Positions 2,111 to 7,281 of a DNA stretch of 7,281 nucleotides are shown piece after piece; within the stretch, counting starts at the first letter, position 1, and the number at the start of each line of letters is the position of its first letter. The notes below the pieces were generated by a model that was not told the DNA's origin, ran no database searches, and saw only the letters and a list, made by a program, of their open reading frames with translations. The DNA comes from Candidatus Poribacteria bacterium (GTDB lineage Bacteria; Poribacteria; DTPJ01; WJIO01), in the NCBI GenBank assembly GCA_014730235.1, contig WJIO01000018.1:1-7281 (forward strand), read 5' to 3'. A program made the position numbers and the translations under genes.

Positions 2111-3529
2111 TTAGAGAAAGTCTTTTAATTTGCGAATCCTAACAGGATGGCGTAGTTTATTAAGAGCCCGTTCTTCGATCTGACGTATTCTCTCTCGACT
2201 GACACCAAAAGTACGACCTATTTGATCCAGAGTACGGGCATAGCCATCATCAATACCAAAGCGTAAACGTATAACCTGAGCTTCACGATCAGAAAGACTA
2301 CTGAGTACCTCATCAATACGTCCTAAAAGCTCGTTTTGAGCGGCTTCATTTTCAGAAGAAACGGCTTTTTCGTCTTTAATAAAGTCAGCAAGATAACTAT
2401 CCTCAGATCCTACGGGTGTTTCCAGAGAAACGGGGTGTCTTGGCATCTGAAGCAACTGCTGCACTTTTTCAGATTTTACTTGCATTTGACCGGCTATTTC
2501 TGCTACAGTTGGGGCACGACTAAGTCTTCTGGCAGCTTTAGCTGAAGCCCTCCTGAGTTCCTTGTTGCTTTCGATAATGTGAACCGGCAGACGGATAACT
2601 CCACCATAGTTTGCAATAGCTCTGGTTATAGACTGCCTAATCCACCATACAGCATAAGTACTGAATTTATAACCTTTTCGGTATTCAAACTTATCCACAG
2701 CCTGCATAAGCCCTACATTACCTTCCTGAATAAGGTCGGATGCGGATAAAGCGGGGCTTACTCCTGCATATTTCTTGGCAATACTAACAACAAGGCGCAG
2801 GTTAGCTTCGATGATCTGTTTTTTTGCACAGCTTATCATTTCAGTACCAAAGCTTATAGTGTTAAAGTTTTTGGCCAACTCTTTGCCATCAAAACCAAAT
2901 TCATCCTGGACTTCAACAAGAATTTCTTTAGCAACTTCTATTATTTGTTCCCTTAGAAAATCTTTATTTCCAGTATCAAGGGCTAAAATAATATCCTGCC
3001 GCTTAGTACCAGAAATTCTTACCAGATTTCTGAGTTGAGACATACCCAGAGCTTCGTTTGAATCAATAGTATTTATAATATCACGAAGAAAACATATATC
3101 CTCTGACATATCTTCTATCATGGAAACTATATCATCCAGATCTTCTTCTGATAAATCCGATTGAATTTCAGATATGGATTTTCTTATTATATTCTGACCC
3201 TCTTCAATCTGGGCAAAAAGTTTTACCTCATCATCTTTTGTAAGAAGAGATTGTCGCCCGATTTCCCGAAGATATATAGCCAGAGAACGTTCTAAACCAT
3301 AATTGTCATATGGTGTTATATATTCTGTTGATTCCTGATATTGATCAGAAACGCGATCCAGGCTTGACAATATCTTATAGCTATTATTATCATCGGATGA
3401 ATCATCGTCATCATCATTATTTCCCAAGTTCAGAACGTTCAGAATATCCTTATCTTCTTCCTGATCCTGGGTATGAGATTCATCCTCATCTTCATATTCT
3501 TCTACTACATCCAGTTTTTGAGTTTCCAA
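2111..3529 (-). CDS. rpoD: RpoD-family sigma-70 RNA polymerase sigma factor
   Basis: The 472-residue protein directs RNA polymerase to promoters. There is no clear region 1.1. Instead the first 80 residues are acidic, with a poly-Asp run at 39-43. Region 1.2 is at about 83-112. A variable insert follows (about 113-237). Regions 2.1-2.4 run from about 238 to 306, with [19 protein letters not shown] at 265-283 and WWIRQ at 295-299. Region 3 is at about 307-385, and region 4.2 carries a helix-turn-helix at 433-461 ([17 protein letters not shown]). Two oddities stand out. The usual D-Q-A-R-T before I-R-I-P is N-Y-G-G-V (307-311), and the 2.1-2.2 linker (255-264) is two residues longer than usual. 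The start codon is TTG, supported by a GGAG site with a 9-base spacer; the next in-frame Met is residue 137. The primary role is likely, but a group 2 alternative sigma is possible. Confidence 0.93.
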
Positions 3530-3538
3530 GGTTTTTTA

Positions 3539-3542
3539 CTCC
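3539..3542 (-). promoter_or_regulatory. Ribosome binding site that fixes the TTG start of the sigma factor
   Basis: The minus strand reads CGGAGT, then 8 bases, then TTG at 3529-3527. The GGAG core has a 9-base spacer to TTG. No ATG or GTG in frame nearby competes, so the rare start codon is supported. Confidence 0.7.
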
Positions 3543-3638
3543 GTTTAATTTTGTATTTTTAACCCTCGTTGCTAAAGGTGTTTTATATTTTGAGTGATCC
3601 GGATTAAATATAAAATACCCCGGCGAAAAAAACTATGC

Positions 3639-3668
3639 TTGACAGATTTGAATTCTCTGTGATATACT
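3639..3668 (+). promoter_or_regulatory. Plus-strand sigma-70 promoter with extended -10
   Basis: TTGACA at 3639-3644, an 18-base spacer, and TATACT at 3663-3668, preceded by TG one base upstream (3660-3661). The -35 matches consensus at all six positions and the -10 at five. The predicted start is near 3675. No minus-strand gene needs it, and it points into the small RNA unit. Confidence 0.82.
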
Positions 3669-3674
3669 TTAATT

Positions 3675-3806
3675 TTGAAATGTCCAGTAAAATGGACTCT
3701 TTAGACAAAGAAAGCTATAAAGTCAGGAATAACTTTACTTTGTCATCAAGCGATATTTTTTGCGGGTTAACGTAAACTTGGTTGGTGAACGTTAACCCTT
3801 TTTTTT
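3675..3806 (+). ncRNA. Putative structured small RNA, about 130 nt, no known family recognised
   Basis: A strong promoter and a strong intrinsic terminator bracket this interval, and no gene follows on the plus strand. Two further hairpins can be drawn. The first is GTCCA (3682-3686) with TGGAC (3693-3697). The second is a two-part stem: GACAAAG (3704-3710) with CTTTGTC (3738-3744), continuing as TAAAGT (3718-3723) with ACTTTA (3732-3737). Its loop is CAGGAATA, and a 7-base bulge (3711-3717) lies on the 5' side. The terminator stem is the third element. I see no match to 6S RNA (no closing stem between the ends), 4.5S, tmRNA or a known riboswitch. AGGA exposed in the second loop resembles a CsrA-type site, but that is weak. 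A 31-codon reading frame with no room for a ribosome site overlaps it. Confidence 0.72.
3764..3806 (+). terminator. Intrinsic terminator of the small RNA
   Basis: GGGTTAACGT (3764-3773) pairs perfectly with ACGTTAACCC (3789-3798) around a 15-base loop, followed directly by eight T (3799-3806). On the minus strand the hairpin is followed by GCAAAAAA, not a T-run, so it acts only on plus-strand transcription. Confidence 0.9.
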
Positions 3807-3875
3807 ATCCCTAACCAGTCAATATATCTTTTTAAAATACCAGAATTTTATTTCTTTCCATAATAACCAATTTTG

Positions 3876-3893
3876 TCATACTAATCATACTAA
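3876..3893. repeat. Perfect 9-bp tandem repeat
   Basis: TCATACTAA occurs twice in immediate succession. It sits about 145 bases downstream of the minus-strand promoter start, within the predicted sigma-factor leader. It could be a protein-binding site or chance in AT-rich sequence. Confidence 0.4.
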
Positions 3894-4043
3894 GATTCAC
3901 TTTAGATTTGTTAAAATATTAAAGTATTTGTGGAATTTCCAGATCAAAATGGAAGAGAAAAGTTAGATATTCCTCAATTGGTTGGTTCTGGTATGTTTCA
4001 TATATAAGATGAATAAATTTGTTTTTTTGACCATATCCTTCCA

Positions 4044-4072
4044 ATTATATCATATGAAAGAACAAATGTCAA
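4044..4072 (-). promoter_or_regulatory. Perfect consensus sigma-70 promoter, minus strand
   Basis: Reading the minus strand, TTGACA (4072-4067) is followed by exactly 17 bases and then TATAAT (4049-4044), with TG one base upstream of the -10. All twelve hexamer positions match consensus. The predicted start is near 4037. The first gene downstream is the sigma factor, whose start codon is about 508 bases away. No closer promoter to that gene was convincing, so this is its best candidate promoter with a long leader. Confidence 0.85.
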
Positions 4073-4182
4073 GAAAACTGTAATTACTACTCCTTAATTT
4101 CAAACTGATATTTGGTCTATTTTATTCCCCAAAAAAAGAAATTAAATAAAAATGCTGATGGAAAGGACTCAGTCTGAATATC

Positions 4183-4212
4183 AAAAAAGGCGATCCGGAT
4201 TGGATCGCCTTT
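4183..4212 (-). terminator. Intrinsic terminator of the pilB-HD-pilC operon
   Basis: An 11-bp stem (4186-4196 with 4202-4212; core GGCGATCC/GGATCGCC) with a 5-base loop is followed on the minus strand by six T (4188-4183, the first three shared with the stem). It lies 39 bases beyond the pilC stop codon. Confidence 0.92.
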
Positions 4213-4251
4213 GATATAATTGACATTTATGACCAGTTGAAAAGAAACTTT

Positions 4252-5466
4252 CTAACCTTCAGTACCTATAGCGTCGGCCATATTGAATATTGGCAAATAA
4301 AGACATATTAATATAGTACCAACAATAGCACCGACAAATATCATCATAACTGGTTCAATAAGCTTTGTAAGGCCTTCTACAGTTCTATCCACCTCGTCTT
4401 CATAAAGGTCAGCTATCTTATTAAGCATGTTTTCGAGGTTACCAGTGTTTTCGCCAATAATAATCATTTGATTTACCATTGGTGGAAATACTTTGTTTTC
4501 ACCCAGGGGTTTGGATATGCTGTCTCCTTGTTGTATACTATTTTTTGCATCTTTTATTGCATTGCCTATAACTCTGTTACCGGATGTATCGGATACAATA
4601 TCAAGAGCTTCCAGAATTGAGACGCCACTTGCATTCAGTAAAGCAAATGTACGGGCAAAACTTGCTACAGCTTTTTTATTAAAAAGATTTCCGAAAAGCG
4701 GCATTTTGAGTTTTATCTTATCCCAACCATATGCACCTTTTTCTGTACTTGTTATTGATCTGAATAACATGTAACAAACAATAACAGTTCCTAAAGCCAT
4801 AAGGCCCTTTGGACCCCTTATATCATTAGAAACATTTATTAGCATTTGGGTAGGCCCTGGAAGTTTACCGCCGATATTTTCAAAAACAGCCGCAAACCTG
4901 GGAACAATGAATACAATTAAACCAATTGTAATAAGTAAACAAAAGCCCAGAATAAGGGTAGGCAGGAATAGAGCAGATTTAACTTTGTTACGCAGCGCAA
5001 GCTCTTTTTCCAAAATTAATGCTAATTGATTAAAAACAGTTTCAAATGCACCACTAGCTTCACCGGCTTTTACCATGCTTATGTAAAGCTTAGAAAATAT
5101 CTTTGGATATTTAGCCATAGCTTCCGATAAGGTTCCTCCACCTTCTACCTCGTTTTTTATTTCAGCAGTAGCTTTAGATAAGGTTGGGTTAACTGTTTGG
5201 CTTGTCAGAATATCCAAACTATCTGTTAATGGTACACCTGCGTCCTGCATGGTGGCAAATTGGCGGCTGAATATTGAAAGGTCATGAACCTTTACTTTAG
5301 GTTTAAACAATTCAATGGAAGATAAAGCTTTTTTTTGCTTAATTTCCGTAACAACCAACCCCTGATTACGCAAATTAGTTACTAAACTCTGAGTATTTTC
5401 TGCTTTTGATGTCCTCTTTTCCAATAATCCCTTTTGATTTCTAACTGTATATACAAAAGTAGGCAC
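4252..5466 (-). CDS. pilC: Type IV pilus / type II secretion inner-membrane platform protein (PilC/GspF)
   Basis: The 404-residue polytopic membrane protein forms the platform on which the PilB-type ATPase acts to move pilin subunits. Two T2SSF repeats are visible. The first has FSRQFATMQDAGVPL and GEASGAFETV; the second has FARTFALLNASGVSILEAL and GENTGNLENML. Three hydrophobic segments lie at about residues 165-189, 221-237 and 371-395, the last within the conserved IEPVMMIFVGAIVG. Length and layout are typical. A GTG at 5473-5475 would add three residues, but AAGGAG overlaps that codon. The same site stands 8 bases before the GTG at 5466, giving the family-typical opening MPTFVYTVRN, so I chose the latter. 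It is the last gene of the operon with the HD protein and PilB upstream. The call could equally be GspF, since this window shows no pilin or secretin. Confidence 0.93.
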   Translation of the reverse strand: MPTFVYTVRNQKGLLEKRTSKAENTQSLVTNLRNQGLVVTEIKQKKALSSIELFKPKVKVHDLSIFSRQFATMQDAGVPLTDSLDILTSQTVNPTLSKATAEIKNEVEGGGTLSEAMAKYPKIFSKLYISMVKAGEASGAFETVFNQLALILEKELALRNKVKSALFLPTLILGFCLLITIGLIVFIVPRFAAVFENIGGKLPGPTQMLINVSNDIRGPKGLMALGTVIVCYMLFRSITSTEKGAYGWDKIKLKMPLFGNLFNKKAVASFARTFALLNASGVSILEALDIVSDTSGNRVIGNAIKDAKNSIQQGDSISKPLGENKVFPPMVNQMIIIGENTGNLENMLNKIADLYEDEVDRTVEGLTKLIEPVMMIFVGAIVGTILICLYLPIFNMADAIGTEG

Positions 5467-5474
5467 GCTACTCA

Positions 5475-5480
5475 CTCCTT
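5475..5480 (-). promoter_or_regulatory. Ribosome binding site that decides the pilC start
   Basis: AAGGAG on the minus strand has an 8-base spacer to the GTG at 5466-5464 and no usable spacing to the upstream GTG at 5475-5473, which it overlaps. Confidence 0.75.
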
Positions 5481-5502: not shown

Positions 5503-6654
5503 TTATAATCCAAGATCAAGAAAAATATCCACTAAAATAGGATCAAACAATATATCAGAATTTGATGCTATATACTCATCATCTTGATTGGATTCTTCGT
5601 ATGCTTCGGCAATTGCTATTATCCTGGCTCCTATAGGAATATCATAACCCTTTATCCTATCGGGAAAACCTGTTCCGTTCCATGCTTCATGGTGGTGCCG
5701 TATCATCGTCTCGGTTTTATTTAATAAACCGACGGGCTTGACCATTTCTGCACCAAGGATGGTATGTACTTCAGGAATTCTTGAGAGTTGACCTTCGGAC
5801 TGATTACACCTGATATCCAGTATACCCATGTCGTGTAAAGTTGAGGCATAATAAATATTCTGCAATTCATCATGTTTCATATCCAATTCACGAGCTATTT
5901 TCATAGCTGTTCTGGCGACGTTCATACAATGGCCTGATGGAACAAGACCGCTAGATTCTATCGCAGTTATAAATATTTCTATAGCATTAACAAAAAAGTT
6001 CCTTCGATTACCTGCGGATATGGCGTTTTTAACGGCAATCGCTGCCTGATAAGCCAGGATATTTAACATTTTAAGATCATCAACAGTAAATTGATCATCA
6101 TCTGAGTTTTTGTTTATTACTTCGATTATACCTATAGATTTTTTTTGCTGATTATTTATATTGCTTTTTGTTTCAGATATTATAATAGGAACACAAAGGA
6201 TACTTTTTGTTTTGAAGCTTGTAACCTTATCCACACTTCCACCAAAACGTTCATCGGAGGAGGTGTCGTTAACAATTGCGGGTAGACAATTTTTAAAGCT
6301 CCACCAAGCTATACTGGGAACAGATGAATTCACAGATAATCTCTTTAGAATATCTTTTTTTTCTCCCAGGGCAACTTTAAAGTATAATTCGTCTTTGTTA
6401 GGATCATACAACATGGTTGATCCTGTTTCGGCATCAGTAAGTTCACAGGCACATGTGCTTATCTCTGTTAGTAATGAATCAAGATCCAGAGTGGAATTCA
6501 TTATCCTGCTTATTTCAATGAGTTTCTGCTGAATGTTATGTCTTTTGGCGCCGGTTTTAATTTTACTGCCACAAAAATAGCAAAAACTTGGATTTCCACG
6601 AATGTTCTTACCACATAAATCACATACTTTATATTTAAGCATTGCTTCCAACAT
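5503..6654 (-). CDS. Zinc-ribbon, GAF and degenerate HD-GYP domain protein
   Basis: The 383-residue protein has three parts. Residues 11-28 hold a CxxC...CxxC pair (C11, C14, C25, C28), a likely zinc ribbon. Residues about 57-210 resemble a GAF sensor domain, with the typical end G-I-I-E-V-I-N-K and A-Y-Q-A-A-I-A-V-x-N-A. Residues about 220-383 are HD-GYP-like: H242, H274-D275, H297, H321-H322-E323 and GTGFP at 327-331. HD-GYP proteins hydrolyse c-di-GMP. Here the Lys of HDIGK is Ile278, the final metal-binding Asp is Glu350, GYP is GFP, and the segment with R-P-Y-R is missing before FDPILVDIFL. It may therefore bind rather than cleave the nucleotide. There is no membrane segment. ATG has GGAG with a 5-base spacer. 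The position between pilB and pilC suggests control of the pilus motor. Confidence 0.88.
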   Translation of the reverse strand: MLEAMLKYKVCDLCGKNIRGNPSFCYFCGSKIKTGAKRHNIQQKLIEISRIMNSTLDLDSLLTEISTCACELTDAETGSTMLYDPNKDELYFKVALGEKKDILKRLSVNSSVPSIAWWSFKNCLPAIVNDTSSDERFGGSVDKVTSFKTKSILCVPIIISETKSNINNQQKKSIGIIEVINKNSDDDQFTVDDLKMLNILAYQAAIAVKNAISAGNRRNFFVNAIEIFITAIESSGLVPSGHCMNVARTAMKIARELDMKHDELQNIYYASTLHDMGILDIRCNQSEGQLSRIPEVHTILGAEMVKPVGLLNKTETMIRHHHEAWNGTGFPDRIKGYDIPIGARIIAIAEAYEESNQDDEYIASNSDILFDPILVDIFLDLGL

Positions 6655-6682: not shown

Positions 6683-7281
6683 TTACATGAAATCCTGAGT
6701 TTTCAAAATCACTTCACCAAAAGCTGTTATACCTCTGGCCACTTTTTCCATACCATCCTCACGCAAGGTTCTCATCCCTTTTGTTCTACCGATTTCACGG
6801 ATTTGCGGAGTTGAAAAGCCACCTTTAAGGATAACCTTTCGGACTTCGTCATCAATATAAAGCAATTCATGTATTGCTGTCATTCCTTTGTAACCTGTGT
6901 CTCCGCAGTTGCTGCAACCAGTACCCATGAATAATTGCAATTTTTCTGTATTAATTTTACATGCTTCTAACTCCCTTAGCATACTGGCGGTTGGAGCAAT
7001 AGGACGGCGGCATTTATCACATATTTTCCGCACTAAACGTTGAGCCATTGCTAATGTTATGGAAGAAGTTAAAAGAAATTCATTTATACCCATATCGTAT
7101 AAACGTATAATAGAAGATGCAGCATCGTTAGTATGAAGTGTACTGAAAACCAGATGACCTGTTAATGCTGCTTCTACAGATATTTGAGCTGTTTCCTTAT
7201 CACGTATCTCACCGACCATTATTACATCAGGGTCATGTCTGAGAAAAGCCCTCAATATTTCTGCAAATGTTAGCTCTATAT
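6683..7281 (-). CDS. pilB: Type IV pilus assembly / type II secretion ATPase (PilB/GspE), C-terminal part (runs off right edge)
   Basis: The frame is open to the window edge and the true start lies outside. The TTG at 7255 is internal, because the codons before it read I-E-L-T-F-A-E-I-L, matching the family's G-L-T-F-A-x-x-L-R. The visible part includes the Walker B region [14 protein letters not shown] (about 7199-7240), the His box [12 protein letters not shown], and the extended PilB/GspE zinc motif with Cys codons starting at 7021, 7012, 6916 and 6907. The family C-terminus follows (G-M-R-T-L-R-E-D-G, then R-G-I-T-x-x-E-V). The cysteines and the G-I-T-x-x-E-V end favour PilB/GspE over PilT. 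The protein is a cytoplasmic hexameric ATPase that powers pilus extension or secretion through PilC. The gene ends 28 bases before the HD-protein start. Confidence 0.93.

Follow-up and report, generated by a model that had tools for sequence, protein, structure and literature searches.

Intergenic small RNAs of the SgrS/RyhB type in E. coli combine a sigma-70 promoter of their own, hairpins, and an intrinsic terminator with at least seven T, in transcripts of the order of 100-200 nt. Hfq-binding small RNAs carry a terminator tail of seven or more T/U (PMC5558911). Hfq proteins of the cyanobacterial type are reported to lack RNA binding and to function together with PilB in pili (PMC10989914). 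Other described RNAs that invite comparison with the present locus are the cis-encoded antisense RNAs over 5' leaders, 6S RNA (RF00013), and the rimP, L10, and L20 leaders.

The window that contains the locus spans all 7281 bases of a contig (G000:C144); the Candidatus Poribacteria genome to which this contig belongs measures 5.5 Mb and is about 92% complete. The predicted small RNA on the plus strand of the window resembles the SgrS/RyhB type in layout and in size, but it has no sequence relationship to these RNAs, canonical Hfq is not evident in the source genome, and the predicted RNA lies antisense in the probable leader of another gene. Full-length complementarity to a predicted sigma factor leader and convergent promoters bring it close to the cis-encoded antisense RNAs, from which it differs in having its own strong terminator and a stable fold. 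Like 6S RNA it is small and structured and could bear on sigma-70 polymerase, in a genome with no recognisable 6S; it is, however, shorter, forms separate hairpins, and does not match the 6S model. Weak matches to the rimP, L10, and L20 leaders end in its terminator, but their scores are well under threshold and the strand carries no gene after the RNA. The features are collected in Table 1.

Table 1. Coordinates of features in the 7281-base window
Feature	Position	Strand	Remarks
Sigma-70 promoter of predicted small RNA	3639-3668	+	TTGACA-N18-TATACT, extended -10 (TGA)
Predicted small RNA	3675-3806	+	about 132 nt; predicted start 7 nt past the -10; single copy in genome
Hairpin 1	3682-3697	+	GTCCA/TGGAC, 6-nt loop; in predicted fold
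Hairpin 2	3704-3744	+	GACAAAG..CTTTGTC; apical loop AAAGUCAGGA open; in predicted fold
Weak third hairpin	3749-3763	+	in predicted fold
Intrinsic terminator	3764-3806	+	perfect 10-bp stem, 15-nt loop, U8
RpoD-like sigma factor	2111-3529	-	472 aa; regions 1.2, 2, 3, 4
Inferred leader of sigma transcript	3530-4037	-	about 508 nt; antisense to predicted small RNA
Perfect sigma-70 promoter, probable sigma-gene promoter	4072-4044	-	TTGACA-17-TATAAT
Terminator after pilC/gspF gene	4186-4212	-	separates pilC operon from sigma promoter
T2SSF/PilC (pilC/gspF) protein	4252-5475	-	
GAF-HD protein	5503-6654	-	
T2SSE/PilB-type ATPase	6683-7279	-	

Promoter and terminator of the predicted small RNA

An earlier sequence-only reading had proposed an unannotated small RNA gene at 3639-3806, with a near-consensus extended -10 promoter. 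This promoter is present: it matches the consensus at 11 of 12 positions, with TG one base 5' of the -10 element. Its class, TTGACA-N16-18-TATACT, occurs at 35 sites genome-wide against 4 for the reversed pattern that served as a control, and the class can therefore be regarded as a working motif in the source genome. The TTGACA-N16-18-TATAAT pattern gave 70 sites against 5 for its reversed form in the same genome, and 66 against 7 in another genome of the order (G001). Enrichment of both classes over the reversed controls is thus 9- to 14-fold, and roughly nine in ten of their sites lie above chance.

The perfect 10-bp terminator with eight T that the same reading had described was likewise recovered. 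The stem pairs GGGTTAACGT with ACGTTAACCC (3764-3773/3789-3798) and is followed by T8 at 3799-3806; the U run exists on the plus strand only, with none on the opposite strand. A standard terminator scan overlooked this element solely owing to its 15-nt loop. To estimate how rare such a promoter and terminator are, the gap 3530-4251 was dinucleotide-shuffled to give 6000 strands. Of these, 133 (2%) had a promoter with at least 11 of 12 matches, 3 (0.05%) had a terminator of the same class with 8 bp, and none had one with 10 bp. Not one of the 6000 contained the promoter and then the terminator, in that order, within 300 nt.

Fold and coding content

Both principal stems named earlier (3682-3697 and 3704-3744) were recovered in the predicted fold; the third, at 3749-3763, is weak and by itself carries little meaning. 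The region 3675-3810 has a predicted folding energy of -39.5 kcal/mol, where shuffled sequences average -23.9 (z -4.6), and none of 200 shuffles matched it. When the terminator is left off (3675-3764), z comes to about -3.4 to -3.8. Sliding windows along the plus strand did not place the body of the small RNA as the most structured part of the window, as dedicated terminators and a repeat score higher; the fold is good, and not outstanding for the window. The anatomy of the DNA, the predicted fold, and the place of both promoters (that of the small RNA and the one on the minus strand) in motif classes enriched in this genome are what the analysis shows.

No ORF of at least 60 aa starts on the plus strand between 3597 and 4493, which bears out the statement that no gene follows the predicted RNA 3' on its strand. 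For this reason, we set aside a reading as an orphan riboswitch or attenuator.

Searches for family members and homologues

A search of the whole window and of 161 bases against Rfam 15 at permissive thresholds gave chance matches only, and none exceeded its gathering threshold. The best bacterial cis-regulatory near-misses, the rimP, L10, and L20 leaders, scored 14 to 18 bits against gathering thresholds of 44 to 58.7. The covariance search thus agrees with the earlier remark that no known RNA family could be recognised.

Homologues of the predicted small RNA were not found by blastn in 58 genomes of the phylum, or by blastn against phages and plasmids, and its exact core pattern had no match in viral contigs. 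A covariance model could draw on this one sequence only, entered twice to satisfy the two-row form; among 84 genomes of the phylum it matched the window alone. Weak local matches of this model at 1965-2092 and 4179-4288 were set aside as other hairpins. The model thus yielded no homologue in the 83 other genomes, leaving a single sequence. It is common for a small RNA to be missing at the distance of an order or phylum, and such a result does not refute the gene.

By these comparisons, the predicted small RNA appears restricted to one genome so far and would be a lineage-restricted new example of a common kind of RNA. The suggestion that the locus holds something undescribed is accordingly borne out for the RNA itself, with no Rfam family and a restricted distribution, and not for its kind, which is common. 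In a limited literature search, no report of a small RNA in Poribacteria came up.

The sigma gene and its probable long leader

All clear genes of the window lie on the minus strand, together with two further ORFs without a family match. The sigma factor falls below the RpoD cut-off, and two longer RpoD-like proteins are encoded elsewhere in the genome. On the 3' side of its gene is a very long hairpin (2042-2101) with a 29-bp stem flanked by A and T runs, which is likely a two-way terminator and attracts spurious miRNA matches in Rfam.

The perfect promoter at 4072-4044 stands just 3' of the pilC terminator and is directed at the sigma gene, which it probably serves. Within 110 bases of the sigma gene (minus strand, 3640-3530) there is no promoter with at least 9 of 12 matches, and the gap after 4044 holds no strong minus-strand terminator. 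A sigma leader of about 508 nt is probable on these three grounds. With a weaker candidate at 3914-3884 (10 of 12, 19-base spacer), the leader would span the small RNA too. Therefore, a sigma transcript from the predicted promoters would cross the small RNA antisense. The overlap lies in the middle of the leader and comes no closer than about 145 nt to the start codon of the sigma gene; this distance, and a possible second, weaker sigma promoter, speak against the antisense reading.

Function of the predicted small RNA

We consider it very probable that 3675-3806 forms a non-coding small RNA gene that stands alone, with its own sigma-70 promoter and its own intrinsic terminator. Our analysis thus favours reading 3639-3806 as a small RNA gene that had escaped annotation. 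The promoter, the terminator, the lack of a downstream gene, and the lack of an Rfam family were all rightly seen in the sequence-only reading; the antisense position in the probable sigma leader was overlooked. This position suggests, tentatively, an RNA nested antisense within the sigma leader of about 508 nt that would act by base pairing, and on that leader before any other target. Production of the two transcripts, use of the minus-strand promoter by the sigma gene, and an interaction between the two RNAs are all inferred. The leader, complementary over the full length of the small RNA, would be the first pairing partner, and duplex formation or RNase III cleavage would then lower or tune sigma expression. 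Convergent transcription may be an additional aid to this control. The leader is ranked first as a target because it is the sole one with positional evidence; pairing with the region of the sigma translation start was no better than shuffled, and pairing with five local start regions gave no signal above shuffles.

A trans-acting RNA that pairs with targets elsewhere, its place in the sigma leader being incidental, is ranked behind the cis reading and appears rather unlikely. Such RNAs typically stand alone with a promoter and terminator of their own. The tail of eight U satisfies the rule of seven or more T for Hfq-binding small RNAs, and before the terminator there is a U6 stretch like that of the Hfq-binding module (PMC5558911). 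Seeds could be provided by the open loops at 3687-3692 and about 3720-3729. However, a single sequence does not allow a conserved seed to be defined, and the five local start regions gave no target signal. Its dependence on Hfq is also doubtful, because the best Hfq-like protein in the genome (L100, 1483-1764, minus strand) is of the cyanobacterial type, reported as not binding RNA (PMC10989914). This protein scores 40.7 bits with PF21979 (Hfq_1) against 29.6 with PF17209, and reads QKQAI where Hfq has YKHAI. The search of the genome, about 92% complete, for canonical Hfq returned this Hfq_1 protein as its best match and one second match below the cut-off. This places an Hfq_1-type protein outside cyanobacteria, in a genome that also carries pilB/pilC-type genes.

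The readings that dispense with base pairing are less probable again. The locus could be non-functional, either a fortuitous promoter and terminator pair or a source of spurious antisense transcription from the leader; no conservation was seen at any distance that could be examined, and chance is expected to account for about 11% of the sites in this promoter class (4 of 35). We regard this as improbable, since a promoter, a structured body, and a strong terminator are jointly very unlikely to arise by chance. More improbable still is a protein-binding RNA, 6S-like or CsrB-like, that would sequester RNA polymerase or a regulator. The RF00013 model found no 6S RNA in the genome (about 92% complete), which leaves that role vacant, and the locus adjoins a sigma gene; but the RNA shows three or four separate hairpins rather than a single long stem opened by a central bubble, no match to the Rfam 6S model, and only two GGA triplets before the terminator (in the stem of hairpin 1 and the loop of hairpin 2), and no CsrA was found in the same genome. 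Last comes a short mRNA that would encode a 31-residue peptide, with its ATG at 3680 and its stop at 3773-3775. Although its frame covers much of the predicted RNA, it has no Shine-Dalgarno sequence, its ATG is about 5 nt from the predicted RNA start, its stop lies within the terminator hairpin, a search of the 83 other genomes gave no homologue, and frames of such length are often expected by chance. A coding role for this frame is unlikely. A type I toxin was also considered and dropped, the 31-aa frame being hydrophilic.

The antisense reading has a wider extension, which we hold to be doubtful: the small RNA could be dedicated to adjusting, as a local switch, how much is made of a primary-like, lineage-specific sigma factor in a Poribacteria lineage without recognisable 6S RNA or canonical Hfq. 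A small RNA inside a sigma leader would suggest local control of a global regulator. If expressed, it would be an early example of a small RNA in Poribacteria.

The predicted sigma leader in a related genome

Among 58 genomes, a clear orthologue of the sigma factor was found only in G001 (64-66% identity). It lies on L032 (G001:C326), a 4968-base contig of a Candidatus Poribacteria assembly from the same order as the source; no genome closer than this, at the level of genus or family, was among those recovered. The alignment of the same gap in this nearest sigma-gene relative, which had been suggested as a check, gave no common sequence beyond chance: the gap sequence of L032 is unrelated, and a counterpart of the small RNA was not found in it. 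A perfect promoter is nevertheless present in L032 at 257-285 on the plus strand, about 412 nt before the start of the sigma orthologue. From this comparison, a long sigma leader appears common to both genomes, with the small RNA detected only in the source genome. A perfect promoter and a long leader before the same sigma gene in two distantly related genomes constitute a separate lead.

Several minor features were observed in these regions. A 23-codon frame, MVKKTNLFILYMKHTRTNQLRNI, at 4034-3963 on the minus strand of the window opens only several bases into the predicted sigma transcript and is possibly due to chance. Short inverted repeats that are alike occur at 1967-1993 of the window (GTCATTCCTGCGAAAGCAGGAATGAC) and at 22-41 on one strand of L032 (ATTCCCGTGAAAACGGGAAT), and these are probably members of a dispersed repeat family. 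Both leaders also contain AT-rich inverted repeats shortly before the sigma gene, at 3577-3619 in the window (14 bp, 93%) and at 591-634 in L032 (12 bp, 83%).
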